Assembly: GCA_011176685.1 (NCBI GenBank) | Contig: DUED01000020.1 | Span: 1-64,000, forward strand | Source of the DNA: Anaerolineae bacterium | GTDB taxonomy: Bacteria; Chloroflexota; Anaerolineae; Anaerolineales; Anaerolineaceae | DNA length: 64,000 nt | Reading direction: 5' to 3' | Part shown: piece after piece, positions 4,135-61,874 of the stretch | Position numbering within the stretch: position 1 is the stretch's first letter | Layout: each line of letters opens with the position of its first letter | Translations under genes and position numbers: made by a program | Notes under the pieces: generated by a model | Databases searched by the model: none | Told to the model about the DNA's origin: nothing | The model's input: only the letters and a program-made list of their open reading frames with translations

Positions 4135-4195
4135 CTATTAAGCTGCTTATTATTGGGTGATTGAGCGTGATTTGAATTAGAGCTTTTTCTGCTTT

Positions 4196-4978
4196 TTAAT
4201 CCTTGTGTTTTGTAGATTTCACTAAGGCATAAATTGAAGTTACTAGAAGCGGAATATGCAGTACTCCCATCCAACGCGTATCTGGATTGAACCAGTGGCT
4301 AAGATTGAATAACGCATAAATCAATCCGTTGAAAGCTGTGATTCGAAATGCAAGCAGGTTCACTTTCGGGTAGAACAGGATTAGCATGTATAAAAATACC
4401 GGTGTAGTAAAACAAAAGGTAAATCCGTAATCAGGTGAAGTAATTAGAAGTATAGGATCAAAATGAGGAATAACTGATGAACCATCAACCCTATAAGGAG
4501 ACCAAAAAGCTAGAAGAGCTAAAGGTAATAGTATATATATGTACCATTTTATATCCTTGAATGAGGTTTCAATGTTCCCGCGAATTGCTACCCATATCCA
4601 GCTTAAGCCAAGAATTACAAACGCAATCAAGCCACTGGTGTGAACCACAAAGCCATACTTCACTGTATTTCCGAATGATTGGGCAAGAGCTATAATTAAA
4701 AAATCCAGCCCCATATAAACAGCAAATAGACGATCTGCCTTCTCTGGTCGGAGAGCAATCAGTAAAATGATAAGTAATGTAACAACATGAAATACTATGC
4801 CCCAACCTTTATAGGGTGTGATGGCAACCATTAGGAGATTGATGATTACATCTTGTGTGTTTTCGGGAGAAAAAGCTTTTTCGGTAATCGGTGGCAATAC
4901 TGAAATCACAATGAATAACAAATAGACGACAGGAAAGAACCACTTTCTTTTTGATAGGTCAGTTAGGTAATTATTCAT
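4196..4978 (-). CDS. Unknown polytopic membrane protein, 260 aa
   Basis: I do not recognise this protein. It starts MNNYLTDLSKRKWFF and has about eight hydrophobic helices (near residues 13-28, 42-58, 61-76, 86-101, 114-130, 145-160, 180-205 and 240-252) with short loops and no long soluble domain. A conserved-looking FNLSHWFNPDTRW lies before the last helix. The C-terminus is basic (KSTKHKD). Its 3' end lies just beyond the IS relic, which may have separated it from former neighbours. No ribosome site is obvious upstream of the ATG. Confidence 0.6.
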   Translation of the reverse strand: MNNYLTDLSKRKWFFPVVYLLFIVISVLPPITEKAFSPENTQDVIINLLMVAITPYKGWGIVFHVVTLLIILLIALRPEKADRLFAVYMGLDFLIIALAQSFGNTVKYGFVVHTSGLIAFVILGLSWIWVAIRGNIETSFKDIKWYIYILLPLALLAFWSPYRVDGSSVIPHFDPILLITSPDYGFTFCFTTPVFLYMLILFYPKVNLLAFRITAFNGLIYALFNLSHWFNPDTRWMGVLHIPLLVTSIYALVKSTKHKD

Positions 4979-5784
4979 AAAACACCTCTTTTTTAATACT
5001 GATCGATTATGTTAAATTTTACTGTTTTTTAAGGATTTTAAGGGTAGAAAGTTCAGCCAGTTTTGCGATCAGAATAAGAAGGTTGAGTTATTGGACACTT
5101 TTAAGATTCGCTTATGTCACCGGAGGTATCCACCTGCCCTAGCGATCAGTCCAGGGAACTCCCAGCCATCTGATTCGAAGTCAGTGGGTCAATGTGTCCA
5201 TTGCACCTGCCTGCACACTAAAAGGGCGCCACCTGAATGCGACCAAAGGGAGTCTCGCAGATGCGATTATAGAGTGTGCCCACTCTCAATTTCGCCAGCC
5301 AGTTTATCCTTGTTATCACTATCACTGATATTCGTTCCTTGGAAACGAATCAAAAATACATTAATTAGTGTCAACTTTTGTCAAGTTTTGTCAACTTTCG
5401 TAGCTCTCTGTAGGAGCAGAGAGCGTAGACGTGTACAGAGCGTAGCGTGGTGTACTCCACCCGCGATGACTGGAAGCCATCGCGAAGCATGCTGTAAAGC
5501 GACCAAAGGGAGTCTCGTATAGATAATCGCAAGGTGGGGTATGTAAACCCCACTCCTCAATTCTTTTGCGATAATTCCCACATTAAAATAAACAGTGCCG
5601 CTTCGTGAAATCCGGAAAGGCAGCTCATATACACAAGACGATAATGGCAACATCTGCCCGTGCAACCACTATGGCGTCTATTGAATGAATTTTATTGCGA
5701 AAAATAAAGGGCTGGATTCATAAGCTAAAAGACTGATCATCGGTTGGTTGCCTGATAAATCATTCATATACTATACTTAAAAAA
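4979..5784. other. Hairpin-rich non-coding block with a repeated module
   Basis: No real gene is seen; the open frames here have poor composition. The identical 19-mer GCGACCAAAGGGAGTCTCG occurs at 5239-5257 and 5499-5517, each followed by a hairpin and a CTCAATT-type segment, so a module of about 60-75 bp is repeated. Perfect hairpins lie at 5403-5424 (8-bp stem), 5462-5484 (7-bp stem) and 5534-5553 (7-bp stem). A triple GTCAA(C/G)TTT direct repeat lies at about 5371-5398. Such a series fits a structured RNA or the subterminal region of a decayed IS200/IS605-type element; neither is proven. Confidence 0.5.
5748..5777 (+). promoter_or_regulatory. Putative promoter of the PCMT gene, near leaderless
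   Basis: TTGCCT (5748-5753) and TATACT (5772-5777) are separated by 18 bases. The ATG at 5785 is only 7 bases past the -10 box and has no ribosome site, so the transcript would begin at or next to the start codon. Confidence 0.45.
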
Positions 5785-6582
5785 ATGATCTCTCTTAAAA
5801 ATAAAAAGCACCTAATCATTATCGCGATTTTTATTGCAGTTTTTGGATTTACTGCGATTTATTTAATCGCACGCCCGGCTGAATCACAAGCGACAATCCC
5901 AACCGAAGCTCCATCCAGTTTATATGATGACCAACGTCAGTCGATGGTCGCACGCGCTAAAATTTCTTTTAACCTGAAAAACCCCGACGTGCTGCGTGCC
6001 ATGCAGGAGGTGCCTCGTCACGAGTTTGTTCCAGAGGATTTGCTTCATCTGGCTTATAGCGATCACCCCTTGCCGATTGGTTATGGACAGACTATTTCTG
6101 CTCCATACATCGTTGCCTGGATGACAGAATTGCTTGAACTGCAACCAGGCGATCGCGTTCTTGAAATCGGTACGGGGTCAGGTTATCAGGCGGCTGTTTT
6201 AGCTCAATTAGGATACGCGGATGTTTACAGCATAGAAATCGTGCCTGAATTAGCCCAACAAGCACAGCAGCGAATAAATCAACTTGGCTATACTGAACTG
6301 CACCTGCGCCAGGGCGATGGCTACTTTGGCTGGGAGGAGTTTGCCCCATTCGACGCCATTATAGTTACCGCTGCCCCCGATCATCTTCCGCAGCCATTAG
6401 TGCAGCAGCTTACTGAAGGCGGACGCATGATCATTCCCATTGGTCCAGTGGGAGGTTACCAATCTATGTGGAAGTTTATCAATGAGGGCGGAGAACTGAA
6501 AGCTTATAATATGGGTGGTGTGAGGTTTGTTCCGCTTGTATCCGAGGGCGAACCGCAACCTATGCAAATACCCGCGGAATAA
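5785..6582 (+). CDS. pcm: Protein-L-isoaspartate O-methyltransferase, membrane-anchored
   Basis: A 265-residue protein. Residues 8-28 form a membrane anchor or uncleaved signal, so the catalytic domain probably faces outside. The PCMT domain follows: VPRHEFVPE, then LPIGYGQTISAPYIVAWM (substrate and SAM site), SAM motif I LEIGTGSGYQ near residue 127 and AAPDHLPQPLVQQL. The enzyme methylates isoaspartyl residues in damaged proteins using SAM. Most bacterial PCMTs are cytosolic, about 210 residues and lack an anchor. The gene overlaps the 3' end of the convergent spermidine-synthase-like gene by 23 bases. Confidence 0.88.
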   Translation: MISLKNKKHLIIIAIFIAVFGFTAIYLIARPAESQATIPTEAPSSLYDDQRQSMVARAKISFNLKNPDVLRAMQEVPRHEFVPEDLLHLAYSDHPLPIGYGQTISAPYIVAWMTELLELQPGDRVLEIGTGSGYQAAVLAQLGYADVYSIEIVPELAQQAQQRINQLGYTELHLRQGDGYFGWEEFAPFDAIIVTAAPDHLPQPLVQQLTEGGRMIIPIGPVGGYQSMWKFINEGGELKAYNMGGVRFVPLVSEGEPQPMQIPAE

Positions 6583-55691: not shown

Positions 55692-56711
55692 TCAGAGGTT
55701 GGTTTCTGCATAATGGCAGGCAACTATGTGCCCAGGTAAGATTTCTCTGAGTATGGGTTCTTTTTTGGCGCAATCCTTCTTGGCAATAGGGCAACGCGGG
55801 TGAAAACGGCAGCCAGAGGGAGGATTGATCGAATTAGGAATCTCTCCTTTAGGCATCGGCTCTGTCCTGCGTTTTTTGGGATCCTGAACTGGAACTGCCG
55901 CCAAAAGGGCTTTTGTATATGGATGCATTGGATGCTGATATACTTCTTGTACCGTGCCAATTTCTGCTAATTTTCCCAAGTAAAGGATACCAATACGATC
56001 GCAAATATATTTCGCAGTTGCAAGATCATGCGTTATGTATAAATAAGTAAGGTCAAATTCCTTCTTGAGCTGTACCATCAAATCAAGTAATAATGCTCTA
56101 ACGCTCACGTCAGCCATCGCAACTGGTTCATCTGCTAATACTAAATCTGGCCTTGTGATCAATGCCCGCGCAATGACAATACGTTGCCGTTGGCCACCTG
56201 ATATTTGATGGGGGTACTTATTATAATAAAAGAGTGGTGGGGTTAAACCAACCTTCTCGAACAACGTTAAGACCATATCGCGATGTTCTGCAGACTTTTC
56301 TGGATAATGGATCTTCAATCCCTGCATTACCGCATCCCCTAAACTCATCCGAGGATTTAATGATGCCATTGGATCCTGAAAAATAACCTGCATGCGCCTG
56401 CGCAACTTTCGAAGTTCTTCAGCAGTAAGTTTGCCAAGATCTATCCCATCAAAGATCACCGTGCCTTCAGTCAGAGTTTCTAATCCAATTGCCAACCTTC
56501 CAATGGTAGTCTTACCAGATCCGCTCTCTCCAGCAAGTCCAAATGCTTCACCGCGTTTGATGTGGATGGTTACATCATCGACAGCGCGTACATAATCGAT
56601 TTTTCCAGCAAATATCTGATCAATCAAACTTTTTTGAACCGGGAAATATTTCTTAATGTTTTCCAGCTTTAGAAAGATTCCGTTGTTATTTCTTTTATTA
56701 TCTGCTTTCAT
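55692..56711 (-). CDS. oppF: Oligopeptide ABC transporter ATPase OppF
   Basis: A 339-residue ATPase. It starts after an extra N-terminal stretch: LKLENIKKYFPVQKSLID, then Walker A LAGESGSGKTTIGRL, Q-loop VIFQDPMASLNPRMS, signature ISGGQRQRIVIARAL, Walker B LVLADEPVAMADVS (usual EPVSALDVS) and YITHDLATA. The C-terminal extension has the cysteines of CRFHPRCPIAKKDCAKKEP, which bind an iron-sulfur cluster or metal in Opp/Dpp ATPases. It is the last gene of the operon, 5 bases after oppD. Confidence 0.92.
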   Translation of the reverse strand: MKADNKRNNNGIFLKLENIKKYFPVQKSLIDQIFAGKIDYVRAVDDVTIHIKRGEAFGLAGESGSGKTTIGRLAIGLETLTEGTVIFDGIDLGKLTAEELRKLRRRMQVIFQDPMASLNPRMSLGDAVMQGLKIHYPEKSAEHRDMVLTLFEKVGLTPPLFYYNKYPHQISGGQRQRIVIARALITRPDLVLADEPVAMADVSVRALLLDLMVQLKKEFDLTYLYITHDLATAKYICDRIGILYLGKLAEIGTVQEVYQHPMHPYTKALLAAVPVQDPKKRRTEPMPKGEIPNSINPPSGCRFHPRCPIAKKDCAKKEPILREILPGHIVACHYAETNL

Positions 56712-56716
56712 AAGAA

Positions 56717-57715
56717 TTACCCTTTGTCAGCCATTTTTTCAGGGTGTTCTTGATACAGCCAGCAATGTATAAATCGATTGCTTTCAACTTCGATAAAAGA
56801 TGGTTCGATTTTAGAACATATCGGCATTACTTTTGGACAGCGAGGATGGAATCGGCAGCCTTTCGGAGGCCGTGTTAAGTTTGGTGGCTCTCCCAGCATT
56901 TTATATAATTCTTCATTTGCATTGAACCGGATATTAGGAATGGATGCCAGCAATCCTTGTGTATAAGGATGCATAGGTTTTTTAAATACATCAAAAATAT
57001 CACCGATTTCCACCATATGACCAGCATACATCACGGCGATACGATCTGCCATCTCTGCTATCAAAGCGATGTTATGCGTGATCATTAGTAGACTTATCTT
57101 AAATTCTTCGCGAATCTCACGCAATTGGTCAGCTAGCTTTGCCTCTACAATAACATCCAGAGAAGTAGTTGCTTCATCTGCCACAATCAAATCAGCATTT
57201 AATATCAACCCAATCCCTGTCATGACACGTTGACGCATACCACCCGAAAGCTGGTGAGGATAACTGATCATCCGATCAGCCCCTATGCCAAGCCGTTTGA
57301 TCATGTCTCTAGCTCGGTTGAGAGCTGATTCTTTTTTTGTTTGTTTTTCATGCACTTGAATCGTTTCGATCAGGTGATCATCAATGCGCTGGACGGGGTT
57401 CAATGATGTCATCGGATCCTGAAAGATCATACTTACTCGACGTCCACGAAAATCATGCAGTTGTTTCTCGTCATATTCCATAATATCTTCATCGTCAAAG
57501 ATTATCTTGCCGCTTGATATCTCACCGGGTGGATCAATCAATCGTAACAAAGCTTTGCCCAATGTGCTTTTACCGCAACCACTCTCTCCTACCAAACCTA
57601 AAATCTCACCTTTATATATATCAAAACTTACGTGGTCGACAGCGCTTACAGGTCCAATCCGTGTTTGGTAGGTGACGGATAAATCTCTAATTTTTATTAA
57701 GATTTCATTTGTCAT
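56717..57715 (-). CDS. oppD: Oligopeptide ABC transporter ATPase OppD
   Basis: A 332-residue ATPase: LVGESGCGKSTLGKAL (Walker A), MIFQDPMTSLNPVQR (Q-loop), LSGGMRQRVMTGIGL (signature), LIVADEATTSLDVI (Walker B; the family usually has DEPTT, here DEATT) and LLMITHNIALI. The Cys-rich tail CRFHPRCPKVMPICSKIEP is present. It pairs with OppF. It starts 1 base after the oppC stop. Confidence 0.92.
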   Translation of the reverse strand: MTNEILIKIRDLSVTYQTRIGPVSAVDHVSFDIYKGEILGLVGESGCGKSTLGKALLRLIDPPGEISSGKIIFDDEDIMEYDEKQLHDFRGRRVSMIFQDPMTSLNPVQRIDDHLIETIQVHEKQTKKESALNRARDMIKRLGIGADRMISYPHQLSGGMRQRVMTGIGLILNADLIVADEATTSLDVIVEAKLADQLREIREEFKISLLMITHNIALIAEMADRIAVMYAGHMVEIGDIFDVFKKPMHPYTQGLLASIPNIRFNANEELYKMLGEPPNLTRPPKGCRFHPRCPKVMPICSKIEPSFIEVESNRFIHCWLYQEHPEKMADKG

Positions 57716-57716
57716 A

Positions 57717-58973
57717 CTAAAGCTCCGATAATCGCGGGTTTAAAATTTCAGATAAACTTTCACCCAGCATACTGAAAGCAAGTGTTACCAAACTGACCAT
57801 CGCCCCAGGGAAAGTAATCAGCCACCATGCTCGACGTAAATAATCCTGGCCTCGTGCAAGGTCGATACCCCAATCTGGTGTGTCAGGCGGTAATCCTAGA
57901 CCGATAAAACTTAATCCTGCCTCCGTTAGGATCGCATCAGCAACATTGACAGAAAAAATAATCACAACTGAAGGCAGAACATTGGGGAACACATACTTGG
58001 TTATTATTGTTAATGGTTTTGTTCCCAAACTGCGCGCTGCTTCAACATATAACTCATTCTTGACAGTCAAGGTCTGTCCGCGCACAATGCGGAAATAAGT
58101 TGGAACGTAAAGCACAGCAATTGCAATGATTATATTTCCCATTCCAGCACCTAAAACAGCAGCAACAGCAATAGCTAATATCAAGCCTGGAAAAGCATAT
58201 AGGCTGTCCATTACGAAGGTTAATATGCGGTCGATTGGTCCGCCTATGAAACCGCTGAACAACCCTAAGGGTACACCAACTACAAAAGATAAGACTGCTG
58301 AGCTCAAACCAACTATCAATGCAATTCTAGTTCCCCAAATAATGCGGCTTAAGATGTCTTGGCCAATTTGATTCGTACCCAAGATAAATGATTCTGCTTT
58401 ACTGCTGCGTAACTTTTCTAATACTATTAAGTTGCCAAAATCAGAAATCGTTTCTCCTGATTCTTCTTCCGACGCAATATATCCATCAATTTCACCTACA
58501 GATACTGCTTCCAATCCTTCTTCAACGGTCTCAAATCTTTCACCTCGTGGTTGATAAACAACATCTATTCCCTCTTCTTCTGCTTGTGTATTTAACCGAT
58601 CCAATGTATCCCGCATTGCCTGTGTAGCTTGGCTGCCCATGGTATACCCGATTTTATTTGTTCTTTCTGCAATATCAGCAAATTTGGTTACATCGCTTTT
58701 CTGATCAACTAACAGTAAAAAAACGGGGGTTTTTTCACCTGGTCTTAATAGAGATGGCCCAACTTCCTCACGAGGATCATGAGGTGCAAACCATTGAGGA
58801 AAAACACCGATAATGATAATAGAAAGTAATAAAATACCACTGATCAAAACGAACCACCAATCACCCTTATACCATTTGCGCGCAAGTAATAAACGTCTAA
58901 AAAACCCAACTTTATCTAACTCTAATTGCCATTCTGGCACTGCATCACTTAGTATTTCTCTTTGATCATTCAT
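57717..58973 (-). CDS. oppC: Oligopeptide ABC permease OppC with an extracytoplasmic insert
   Basis: A 418-residue permease where about 300 is usual. Helix 1 is at residues 41-60. The normal path from WFAPHDPREE to FILGTNQIGQDILSR (196-210) is broken by an insert of about 110 residues (83-193) lying outside the membrane. The insert reads VFLLLVDQKSDVTKFADIAE, NKIGYTMGSQATQAM, RFETVEEGLEAVSVGEIDGY, the pattern of a type 2 periplasmic-binding lobe (KSDI/GS/ExxLxAVxxGEIDAxI). The rest is a regular six-helix permease with the EAA loop AARSLGTKPLTIITKYVFPN. Gene order and the 2-base junction to oppD make it part of the operon. Confidence 0.88.
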   Translation of the reverse strand: MNDQREILSDAVPEWQLELDKVGFFRRLLLARKWYKGDWWFVLISGILLLSIIIIGVFPQWFAPHDPREEVGPSLLRPGEKTPVFLLLVDQKSDVTKFADIAERTNKIGYTMGSQATQAMRDTLDRLNTQAEEEGIDVVYQPRGERFETVEEGLEAVSVGEIDGYIASEEESGETISDFGNLIVLEKLRSSKAESFILGTNQIGQDILSRIIWGTRIALIVGLSSAVLSFVVGVPLGLFSGFIGGPIDRILTFVMDSLYAFPGLILAIAVAAVLGAGMGNIIIAIAVLYVPTYFRIVRGQTLTVKNELYVEAARSLGTKPLTIITKYVFPNVLPSVVIIFSVNVADAILTEAGLSFIGLGLPPDTPDWGIDLARGQDYLRRAWWLITFPGAMVSLVTLAFSMLGESLSEILNPRLSEL

Positions 58974-58994: not shown

Positions 58995-60017
58995 TTAGTA
59001 TCGTATACGTGGATCCACTAGTGCATAAAGAATATCCATCAGCAATGAAATTATGGCCACGAAAAATGCAAACACTGCAATTGTGGATTGCACAGCAGTG
59101 TAATCGCGTAGCGCAATGCGATCTACCAAATACCGGCCCATACCCGGCCAAGAAAAAGTTGTTTCAGTCAACACAGCACCTGCGATTAAAATAGCCATTT
59201 GCAAACCAATTAATGTCATAATCGGGATAAAAGTATTTCTTAATGCATGCTTATATGCCAATTGCTTTTCTGGGATACCACGTGCCCTGCCAGCTGTTAT
59301 AAAATCCGATTTCAACATCTCAATCATATTAACTCTTGTTAGACGGATGAATACACCTGTTAATGCTAATCCTAATGTGATCGAAGGCATAATGAGATGC
59401 AATAGACTGGATTTTAAAGCTTCCCAATCTTGTGTCAGAATAGAATCTAGGACATAGAAATTGGTAATTGAATTAAATCTGGTCATAATTACAGGATTCA
59501 TTCGTCCTGATAGTGGCAATAAGTCTAACCTGACGCCGAATACAATCTGGAAAACAAGCCCTAAGAAGAAAATTGGAATGGAATAAATTAAAACACTGAA
59601 TACGCGAATACAATAATCGATAAATTTCTTCCTGTTCATTGCCGCAGAAGCACCCAACCCAATTCCAAATAAACTGGTAAATAACATGGCTGGGATAGTG
59701 AGTTCTATTGTGGCAGGTAGGCGCTCTCCTAATTCATCTTTAATCAGGCGTTCACCGCGCGTGAGCGCATTGCCAAAATTGAACGTCACCATATCTTTCA
59801 AGTAATTGATATACTGAACTGTAATAGGATCATTCAATCCTAACCGCTCACGTATGCGATCAGCTTGTTCTTCGCTCACTCGTGGACCAAGTTGCGATCG
59901 GATGGGATCTCCCGGTAATACTCGCATGATAAAAAAAACTAAACTAACCATAATTAATACCATCGGGATGGTCATTATAAAACGTGTAATCAAGAATTTA
60001 CGTAATGATGATGACAT
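58995..60017 (-). CDS. oppB: Oligopeptide ABC permease OppB
   Basis: A 340-residue permease of normal size. It starts MSSSLRKFLITRFIMTIPMV with helix 1 and continues FFIMRVLPGDPIRSQLG, ELGERLPATIELTIPAML, the EAA loop AGRARGIPEKQLAYKHALRN and VLTETTFSWPGMGRYLVDRI. It forms the channel with OppC. It lies 22 bases before oppC and is separated from oppA by a hairpin. Confidence 0.94.
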   Translation of the reverse strand: MSSSLRKFLITRFIMTIPMVLIMVSLVFFIMRVLPGDPIRSQLGPRVSEEQADRIRERLGLNDPITVQYINYLKDMVTFNFGNALTRGERLIKDELGERLPATIELTIPAMLFTSLFGIGLGASAAMNRKKFIDYCIRVFSVLIYSIPIFFLGLVFQIVFGVRLDLLPLSGRMNPVIMTRFNSITNFYVLDSILTQDWEALKSSLLHLIMPSITLGLALTGVFIRLTRVNMIEMLKSDFITAGRARGIPEKQLAYKHALRNTFIPIMTLIGLQMAILIAGAVLTETTFSWPGMGRYLVDRIALRDYTAVQSTIAVFAFFVAIISLLMDILYALVDPRIRY

Positions 60018-60128: not shown

Positions 60129-61766
60129 TTATTCAGCAGCTTCTGCTTCGGAAGTGTGGTTGAATACCATGTAGCGCAGTGCAGGAGCGTCGATTTTTTC
60201 CACCGTCAATCCTTCAACACTTTCCAGACGTGTTGATTCAATTGGACCTAAGGTGCGCCAAGCGATATCAATTTCACCTTTTTCAACAGCATTAGCCATA
60301 GTGGTTGGATCAGCGTAGTATTTGACGATCACATTCGGGATCTTGGGTGCTTCGCCACTATAGTTGGGGTTGGCTTCTAGAACCAATTGCTCCCCTGGTG
60401 TATGTGAAACCATTCGATATGCACCAATACCATCCAATGTATCTGGGAATTGCACAAGCTCATCCGGCCCAAAGGTATTCGGATTTACTGGTACAAATGG
60501 TGCTGTAGCTGCCAGCGCACTGAAGAAACCAATCGGGTATTTGAGATTGTAAACAACGGTCTTTTCATCAACTGATTCTACATTATCAACATACACCTGA
60601 ACCAAACCAGAAACCTGACCTTCCAGGGTATTGAAGCGATCCCAAGCATACACAAAGTCATCAGCCGTGACGAGTGTGCCATCAGCAAACTGTAGACCGT
60701 CTTTTAAAGTGAAAGTATATTGTAAACCATCAGCGCTGATCTCTGGGAAGTCTGCAGCAGCGGCAAGTACAAGTTCTGCCGTGCCGGGTGTGTAACCCAA
60801 CAATGCCATACCAGTATTCTTGATGATCTCCCAGTCATGGACTGCGTATGCATCATTGGCATCTAAGCTGTTGACCTCATCGGTTGTACCAATAATGATG
60901 GTATCAGTGGAACCGGAAACAGGAACTGCATCTGCGCCGAAGCTGAGAACATCATAGTTGAATTCAAATGGTGCACCAATAGCAACACCCTCTACACCAT
61001 TGCGGTAAGTGATGTATTCGGGTTCAAAGAACAAAGGAATAGTAGGAACATCCTCTGCATATAATTCACCGACTTGCTTGTAAAGTTCTGCACGTTCAGC
61101 TGTATCGGTGGCAGCGCCAGCGCTTACTAACAATTTATCCATTTCCTCATTGCAGTAGTTAACACCATTGTCTGGTGACTGTAAGCAGGATGCAAATGGT
61201 GTCAACCATGTATCAGGATCCACGAAATCTGGGAACCAACCTAAAATGAAGAATGGTAAATCACCAGCAACAAAGCCATCAACGTATTCTGCCCAGTTCT
61301 GGACTTGCAGATTGACTTTGCACATACCAGTCTCTTCGATTTGCTCCTTGAGCACCTGCATCACATCCGCGGTTGTGGTACCGTAGTGTTCAGGTGGATA
61401 CCAAAGATCAAATTCAAATGGATTATCTTCTGAATAACCCGCTGCCTGAAAAAGTTGTTTGGACATCTCCAAATCACGAATACCATACTTTTCCAAGAAA
61501 GGTTCGGTCGCGTACGGATAGCCTTTAGGAACCATGTGATAAGCAGGAGTATTTCTTCCTTCAAACACACGGTCAACAATCACCTCGCGGTCAATCGATG
61601 CAGCGATAGCTTGACGCAATTCCTTCGTCCAAAGATACTCAGACGCGAGAGCAGCTTCCTCAACGGCTTCTTCAACTTGGGCTGCTTCTGGCGCTTCACC
61701 AGCACAGGCAGCGGAAGCCACGAGAGCCAAGATCACAAAACCGAACATTAAATATTTTTTAAACAT
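60129..61766 (-). CDS. oppA: Circularly permuted oligopeptide-binding lipoprotein (OppA-like)
   Basis: A 545-residue SBP_bac_5-family protein with rearranged order. Residues 1-21 are a lipoprotein signal (CAG cleavage). An acidic Ala/Glu linker (22-42) leads straight into the normally C-terminal half: LRQAIAASIDREVIVDRVF at about 50, YPYATEPFLEKYGI, FFILGWFPDFVDPDTWL and DVPTIPLFFEPEY near 245. Then comes the normally N-terminal half: TDTIIIGTTDEVNSLDAN at 287, YTFTLKDGLQFADGTLVTAD at 350, DTLDGIGAYRM near 442, VLEANPNY and finally LRYMVFNHT at 530, after which the chain ends. In ordinary family members VFNHT is followed directly by RQAxAxAID. Both halves are complete. The start MFKKYLMF follows GGAGGAG; MEEK at 61778 overlaps that site. 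Confidence 0.92.
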   Translation of the reverse strand: MFKKYLMFGFVILALVASAACAGEAPEAAQVEEAVEEAALASEYLWTKELRQAIAASIDREVIVDRVFEGRNTPAYHMVPKGYPYATEPFLEKYGIRDLEMSKQLFQAAGYSEDNPFEFDLWYPPEHYGTTTADVMQVLKEQIEETGMCKVNLQVQNWAEYVDGFVAGDLPFFILGWFPDFVDPDTWLTPFASCLQSPDNGVNYCNEEMDKLLVSAGAATDTAERAELYKQVGELYAEDVPTIPLFFEPEYITYRNGVEGVAIGAPFEFNYDVLSFGADAVPVSGSTDTIIIGTTDEVNSLDANDAYAVHDWEIIKNTGMALLGYTPGTAELVLAAAADFPEISADGLQYTFTLKDGLQFADGTLVTADDFVYAWDRFNTLEGQVSGLVQVYVDNVESVDEKTVVYNLKYPIGFFSALAATAPFVPVNPNTFGPDELVQFPDTLDGIGAYRMVSHTPGEQLVLEANPNYSGEAPKIPNVIVKYYADPTTMANAVEKGEIDIAWRTLGPIESTRLESVEGLTVEKIDAPALRYMVFNHTSEAEAAE

Positions 61767-61874
61767 CTTCTCCTCCATTGGTTAATTTTTTTTTACTGAT
61801 TTTTAGATTAAACTATGTGCACCAAATCCCTTTGCATCACCTCCTTTTGTCTACTTTCATCATCATAGAATTAG

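Follow-up and report, generated by a model that had tools for sequence, protein, structure and literature searches.

The gene at positions 60129 to 61766 (minus strand) of the window, the 64,000-nucleotide stretch of DNA analyzed here, encodes a substrate-binding protein (SBP) of 545 residues in which the two blocks of the SBP_bac_5 family occur in reversed order. We conclude with high confidence that it is the lipoprotein SBP of a peptide importer of the Opp type, and that a circular permutation sets its chain apart from canonical SBP_bac_5 proteins. A natural circular permutation within SBP family 5 had been proposed in the initial annotation, and it is now supported by profiles, PDB matches, orthologues, synteny, a tree and the predicted fold. 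Beyond that proposal, a similar permutation was found to recur in several other SBP_bac_5 lineages.

Block order in the permuted protein

The assignment rests on the reading frame and on profile, PDB and HMM matches. The frame starts at the ATG at 61766 or at an in-frame ATG at 61778, and its stop lies at 60129. Residues 1-21 (61704-61766, minus strand, as are all parts of the gene) form a signal peptide that ends in the lipobox sequence ASAAC, and the lipobox cysteine, Cys21, is nearly invariant in a 21-row alignment of permuted proteins. An acidic, alanine-rich tether follows (residues 22-45; 61632-61703). The canonically C-terminal block comes next (residues 46-276; 60939-61631) and comprises lobe II, the return hinge strand and its C-terminal tail, as defined by profile, PDB matches, alignment, model and HMM. 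The translation then reads through a linker, GADAVPVSGS (residues 277-286; 60909-60938), and the old termini meet in it around FGADAVPVSG / SFADGYTPVSGDANTIIIG. The canonically N-terminal block, which is lobe I according to profile, model and HMM, comes last (residues 287-545; 60132-60908) and stops just past the hinge strand at 520-535 (ALRYMVFNHT). Both blocks are complete, in frame and free of stops, as had been claimed from the initial reading.

Three profile comparisons give the same reversed order. The Pfam profile PF00496 (SBP_bac_5) matches the protein twice, with residues 47-196 corresponding to profile positions 215-365 and residues 332-539 to positions 2-210. The whole protein scores 235.8 bits (E 1.1e-69) against a gathering cut-off of 32.4, and each half is also recognized alone (E 1.2e-25 for the first and 2.9e-43 for the second). 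PF00496, a cluster C family, is the only Pfam family that matches at E 0.001 or better. OppA and MppA chains in the PDB match in two stretches of reversed order, such that OppA 289-485 corresponds to residues 50-248 and OppA 67-252 to residues 345-511. A custom HMM of 495 positions, built from 44 canonical-order proteins, aligns residues 48-274 with model positions 267-491 and residues 286-539 with positions 5-261. This places the cut at model 261/267, just beyond the first inter-lobe strand. The collinear canonical order is thus absent from the window SBP in three independent comparisons, and for this reason it is classed, on its sequence, as a permuted relative of SBP_bac_5 and no canonical member. 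The agreement of Pfam, PDB and custom HMM bears out the earlier claim of two reversed blocks in one chain. The cut at the FNHT/RQA joint and the short linker between the old ends are likewise upheld by profiles, PDB matches and orthologues.

Predicted fold, hinge and tether

In canonical cluster C proteins such as YejA, lobe 1 is discontinuous (residues 1-286 and 540-579), lobe 2 spans residues 287-539 and two segments bridge the lobes (PMC10924461). The cut in the window SBP falls past the first bridge, so each lobe would be continuous and one bridge would be left. The product would still fold as a two-lobed flytrap of normal shape, but lobe II (about 46-247) and lobe I (about 250-536) would each be built from a single stretch of chain, and a single crossover strand (about 242-255) would replace the usual two. 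The lipid anchor would move to the hinge by way of a lengthened tether. The window SBP shares all sequence blocks, the Pfam family, the operon context and an aspartate aligned with OppA Asp419 with OppA, DppA and MppA. These canonical proteins, however, have a discontinuous lobe I and an anchor on strand 1 of that lobe, whereas lobe I of the window SBP is continuous and its anchor lies at the hinge.

AF2 models were made from 21 sequences without templates for the permuted SBP (pLDDT 77.6, pTM 0.76) and compared with a model of its canonical sister (pLDDT 81.6). The permuted model has the strands and helices of the sister, rotated in their order. Residues 520-535 of the permuted protein, directly before its C-terminus, correspond to the long hinge strand of the sister (279-294), and residues 242-255 to its return strand (511-524). 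As a control, the sister model was aligned with PDB SBPs and matched over 483 residues (Z 38.5), whereas the permuted model matched over only about 230 residues (Z 21.5). The aligned part is residues 287-532, placed on positions up to about 250-270 of OppA-like PDB chains. The shorter alignment of this model is as expected for a permutation under order-keeping aligners. A search of the predicted structure for a normal closed fold with new termini near the hinge had been proposed at the outset; the rotated elements and the position of the hinge strand agree with such a fold, but the packing of both lobes as one SBP, in the two-lobe, three-domain fold of the family, is inferred only from pTM and secondary structure.

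The tether after the lipobox cysteine measures 24-62 residues (median 35) in permuted proteins vs 7-34 (median 16) in canonical ones. The ranges overlap, and the longer tether fits an anchor that needs to reach the hinge. At the other end of the chain, permuted relatives continue for just 7-10 residues after VFN.

Conservation, operon context and origin

The same permuted gene is present in about 24 of 147 Anaerolineaceae genomes from 10 genera, although some copies are contig-edge fragments, and the named genomes that were scanned contain 21 loci with this order. A search for such orthologues in related genomes had been proposed in the initial annotation. Cultured isolates with the permuted order include Pelolinea submarina MO-CFX1 (complete genome), Longilinea arvoryzae, Ornatilinea apprima and Anaerolinea thermolimosa. 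The relatives are 66-76% identical to the window protein across whole chains, and the mean column identity of the alignment is 71%. dN/dS is 0.05-0.11 for close pairs, and as judged from these sequences the genes are under purifying selection. In one metagenome-assembled genome, UBA4781, a frameshift splits the permuted gene (4150-5790 of its locus) near residue 137 of the N block; it is probably a sequencing error.

The window SBP is encoded at the head of an intact operon, whose genes were assigned by comparison of ORFs and operons. It is followed on the same strand by the permeases oppB (58995-60017) and oppC (57717-58973) and the ATPases oppD (56717-57715) and oppF (55692-56711), and these four genes follow the permuted gene in every permuted locus with sufficient flank. 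OppC carries an extra segment of about 130 residues before its permease domain. This segment has no Pfam match; it is present in the canonical-order operons of the family too and is missing from Archaeoglobus. D180 of the permuted SBP aligns with OppA Asp419, which we take to have a role in peptide binding, and is invariant in 21 rows. Since this residue is kept, peptide binding is expected, and peptides would bind the permuted SBP and then pass to OppBCDF. That peptides are the ligand is an inference from operon context and homology alone, without binding data. We infer, in the absence of expression, binding or structure data, that the protein most likely functions like any other peptide SBP, apart from its altered hinge and tether.

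Could the reversed order be an artefact, with two SBP fragments misjoined by assembly or binning? The window genome is an incomplete assembly of 66 contigs, which leaves room for such an error. It is nevertheless practically ruled out: about 20 genomes, each assembled independently and one of them a complete isolate genome, have the same order at 66-76% identity, and these orthologues run straight across the junction. The joint is as conserved as the remainder of the chain, and F276, S284 and G285 in it are invariant. The initial annotation had named an assembly join as a possible refutation, and the orthologues reject it. Because each lobe is continuous in the permuted order, one might instead picture the halves of a split SBP that were fused later and act as two separate domains with other partners. 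This is hardly credible in the face of a single lipoprotein signal, a short linker of 10 residues, one copy per genome in a standard operon without a second SBP, a confident single model (AF2 pTM 0.76) and a canonical homologue in the same slot. Two independent proteins are also excluded by signal, linker and operon. That the protein has become a sensor or regulator without a transport role has a precedent of sorts, as another kind of permuted SBP_bac_5 domain (type B, below) forms the ectodomain of a Ser/Thr kinase in a related lineage. For the window gene this is very unlikely, as it encodes a plain lipoprotein immediately upstream of intact oppBCDF, and the same holds for all loci with enough flank.

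The nearest canonical-order homologues of the window SBP, 41-44% identical to it, are found in genomes of the same family (G005, G531, G535 and G538) and hold the identical operon slot, as does a canonical-order homologue in G036. The OppC of the first three of these genomes matches the extra OppC segment of the permuted operons. No genome carrying both forms was found among the 147 family genomes at the threshold used. In a tree for which permuted rows were first rearranged into canonical order, the permuted proteins form one clade (support 100) that is sister to the same-family canonical homologues (support 100), and canonical rows from Archaeoglobus, Zymogenaceae and Thermofilum fall outside both. 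Because of the same-slot homologues and this tree, we infer from sequence comparison that the canonical order is ancestral and that the gene was rotated in place, in one event for this clade. It had been stated initially that relatives with the normal order at the same locus would refute the permutation. Such relatives exist, but as a sister clade in other genomes, so the permutation is derived and not refuted. The opposite polarity, a permuted ancestor with a later reversion in the canonical sister clade, is favored by nothing but the symmetry of the argument. The three outgroups are canonical, as are most SBP_bac_5 proteins, and the permuted rows form a single clade; we give this possibility scarcely any weight.

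Rotation in place of the resident gene would have occurred in the ancestor of these Anaerolineaceae, and the route was probably a tandem duplication. The second lobe would then have gained a new lipoprotein start in front of it, and a new stop would have appeared downstream of the first hinge strand. The initial annotation had suggested a tandem duplication in which the outer halves were lost; this remains plausible but unproven. No tandem-SBP intermediate was found among the long SBP frames checked (L143, L144, L145, L146, L147 and L091), each of which contains one SBP, canonical or type B, preceded by other sequence. In two of them (L143, 1843-5313, minus strand; L144, 176-2926, plus strand) a canonical SBP_bac_5 domain is C-terminal in open frames of 1157 and 917 residues, respectively.

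Recurrence, precedents and implications

We designate the clade of the window SBP type A and the further permuted SBP_bac_5 proteins types B to G. Type B is DppA-like; its residues 76-447 correspond to DppA 126-502 and its residues 482-563 to DppA 30-117, with the cut in the domain II loop (model about 93-99/116). At E 1e-80, 94 of the 201 genomes in the window's order have a match, type D and a few fragments included, and type B is also found in other classes of Chloroflexota. One long frame (G038:C3:55697-59698) has an SBP judged by eye to be sugar-type ahead of a type-B domain. The kinase mentioned above (locus L091 in G641:C168, 3308-6118, plus strand) is a 936-residue transmembrane Ser/Thr kinase with a type-B domain as its outer part, and its gene is immediately followed by those for a stand-alone type-B SBP and the associated permeases. 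From its sequence, the permuted SBP appears to serve here as a receptor-kinase ectodomain.

Type C (L019, L033 and L090) has a hinge cut as in A, belongs to a different clade and has canonical relatives of 58-68% identity. Type D (L084) is cut in the middle of lobe II (model 329/335) and is close to or inside B in the tree. Its nesting in B is not secure, and an AU test does not reject a B clade without D (p 0.46). Permuted lineages outside the window's order occur in Bacillota, Alphaproteobacteria and haloarchaea. Type E, an OppA-like protein encoded in a plasmid record of Subdoligranulum variabile, has the same cut site as B (residues 442-558 correspond to B. subtilis OppA 16-132 and 54-441 to 138-522; E 5.7e-96). 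Its gene (L134, 3092-4879, plus strand) encodes a serine-rich C-terminal tail and is unannotated in the PLSDB table. Type F is a haloarchaeal plasmid family (Halobaculum, Haloprofundus, Halalkalicoccus, Halopenitus and others) cut as in D, and its N-terminal part matches weakly (21-22 bits). Four haloarchaeal permuted SBP_bac_5 loci (L135, L139, L140 and L141) lie on megaplasmids and are annotated as ordinary ABC transporter substrate-binding proteins. Type G, from Nitratireductor sp. OM-1, is also cut as in D, and F and G may have a common origin. Short junction-like matches on Deinococcus, Salipiger and Leisingera plasmids (H11, H13 and H14) were discarded as canonical genes in which the match extends into the signal region.

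Each of the three cut sites, namely the hinge joint (A and C), the domain II loop (B and E) and the mid lobe II loop (D, F and G), is thus used in at least two lineages. A single origin for all types is unlikely, given their different cut sites and the canonical sisters that separate them in the tree. At least four independent origins (A, B, C and E) can be stated with confidence, and one or two more are likely. We consider it probable that SBP_bac_5 is a naturally permutable fold, whose permutants were fixed repeatedly in bacteria and archaea at three preferred sites, once perhaps on an already permuted gene (D, close to or within B).

Natural SBP permutation was known from another class. Tp0684 (TpMglB-2), the glucose-binding lipoprotein of Treponema pallidum, is a natural permuted SBP described as 'Type Ic / Cluster Bc'; it retains ligand binding, and its authors also weigh tethering as a possible reason (PMC4990184). 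Both cases are natural circular permutations of membrane-tethered SBPs of ABC importers and are conserved in a set of bacteria. The window SBP shares the permuted topology of that class without the cluster B (sugar-binding) fold and homology. In Tp0684, a cluster B sugar SBP, the permutation adds a fourth crossover, whereas the hinge cut in the cluster C window SBP removes one. The gene for the window SBP is part of a resident operon and has a sister of canonical order. Permuted halves of ribose-binding protein (PMC9815098) and domain-insertion biosensors (PMC6335823) demonstrate that SBP folds tolerate rearranged chain order. Engineered permuted binding proteins are laboratory-made, whereas the window SBP is natural, operonic and under selection. 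The initial annotation knew of no described permuted OppA. This holds in the open-access literature searched, where we found no published permuted OppA or SBP_bac_5 and only Tp0684 as a natural permuted SBP; the result is provisional, as subscription journals were mostly outside the scope. What is new, with the same reservation, is the SBP_bac_5 case, the operon with a canonical sister and the recurrence at shared sites.

Circular permutation is usually shown by comparison of distant folds. Here, the states before and after the event occupy one operon slot in sister genomes with the permeases kept, which makes its origin and cost directly testable. Permuted forms break the assumption, made in annotation, of a single collinear SBP_bac_5 model, and with termini at the hinge they are ready-made biosensor scaffolds. 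SBP flytraps are thought to require their hinge; how much of it is necessary is the question raised by a natural variant that has a single covalent crossover and is anchored at the hinge.
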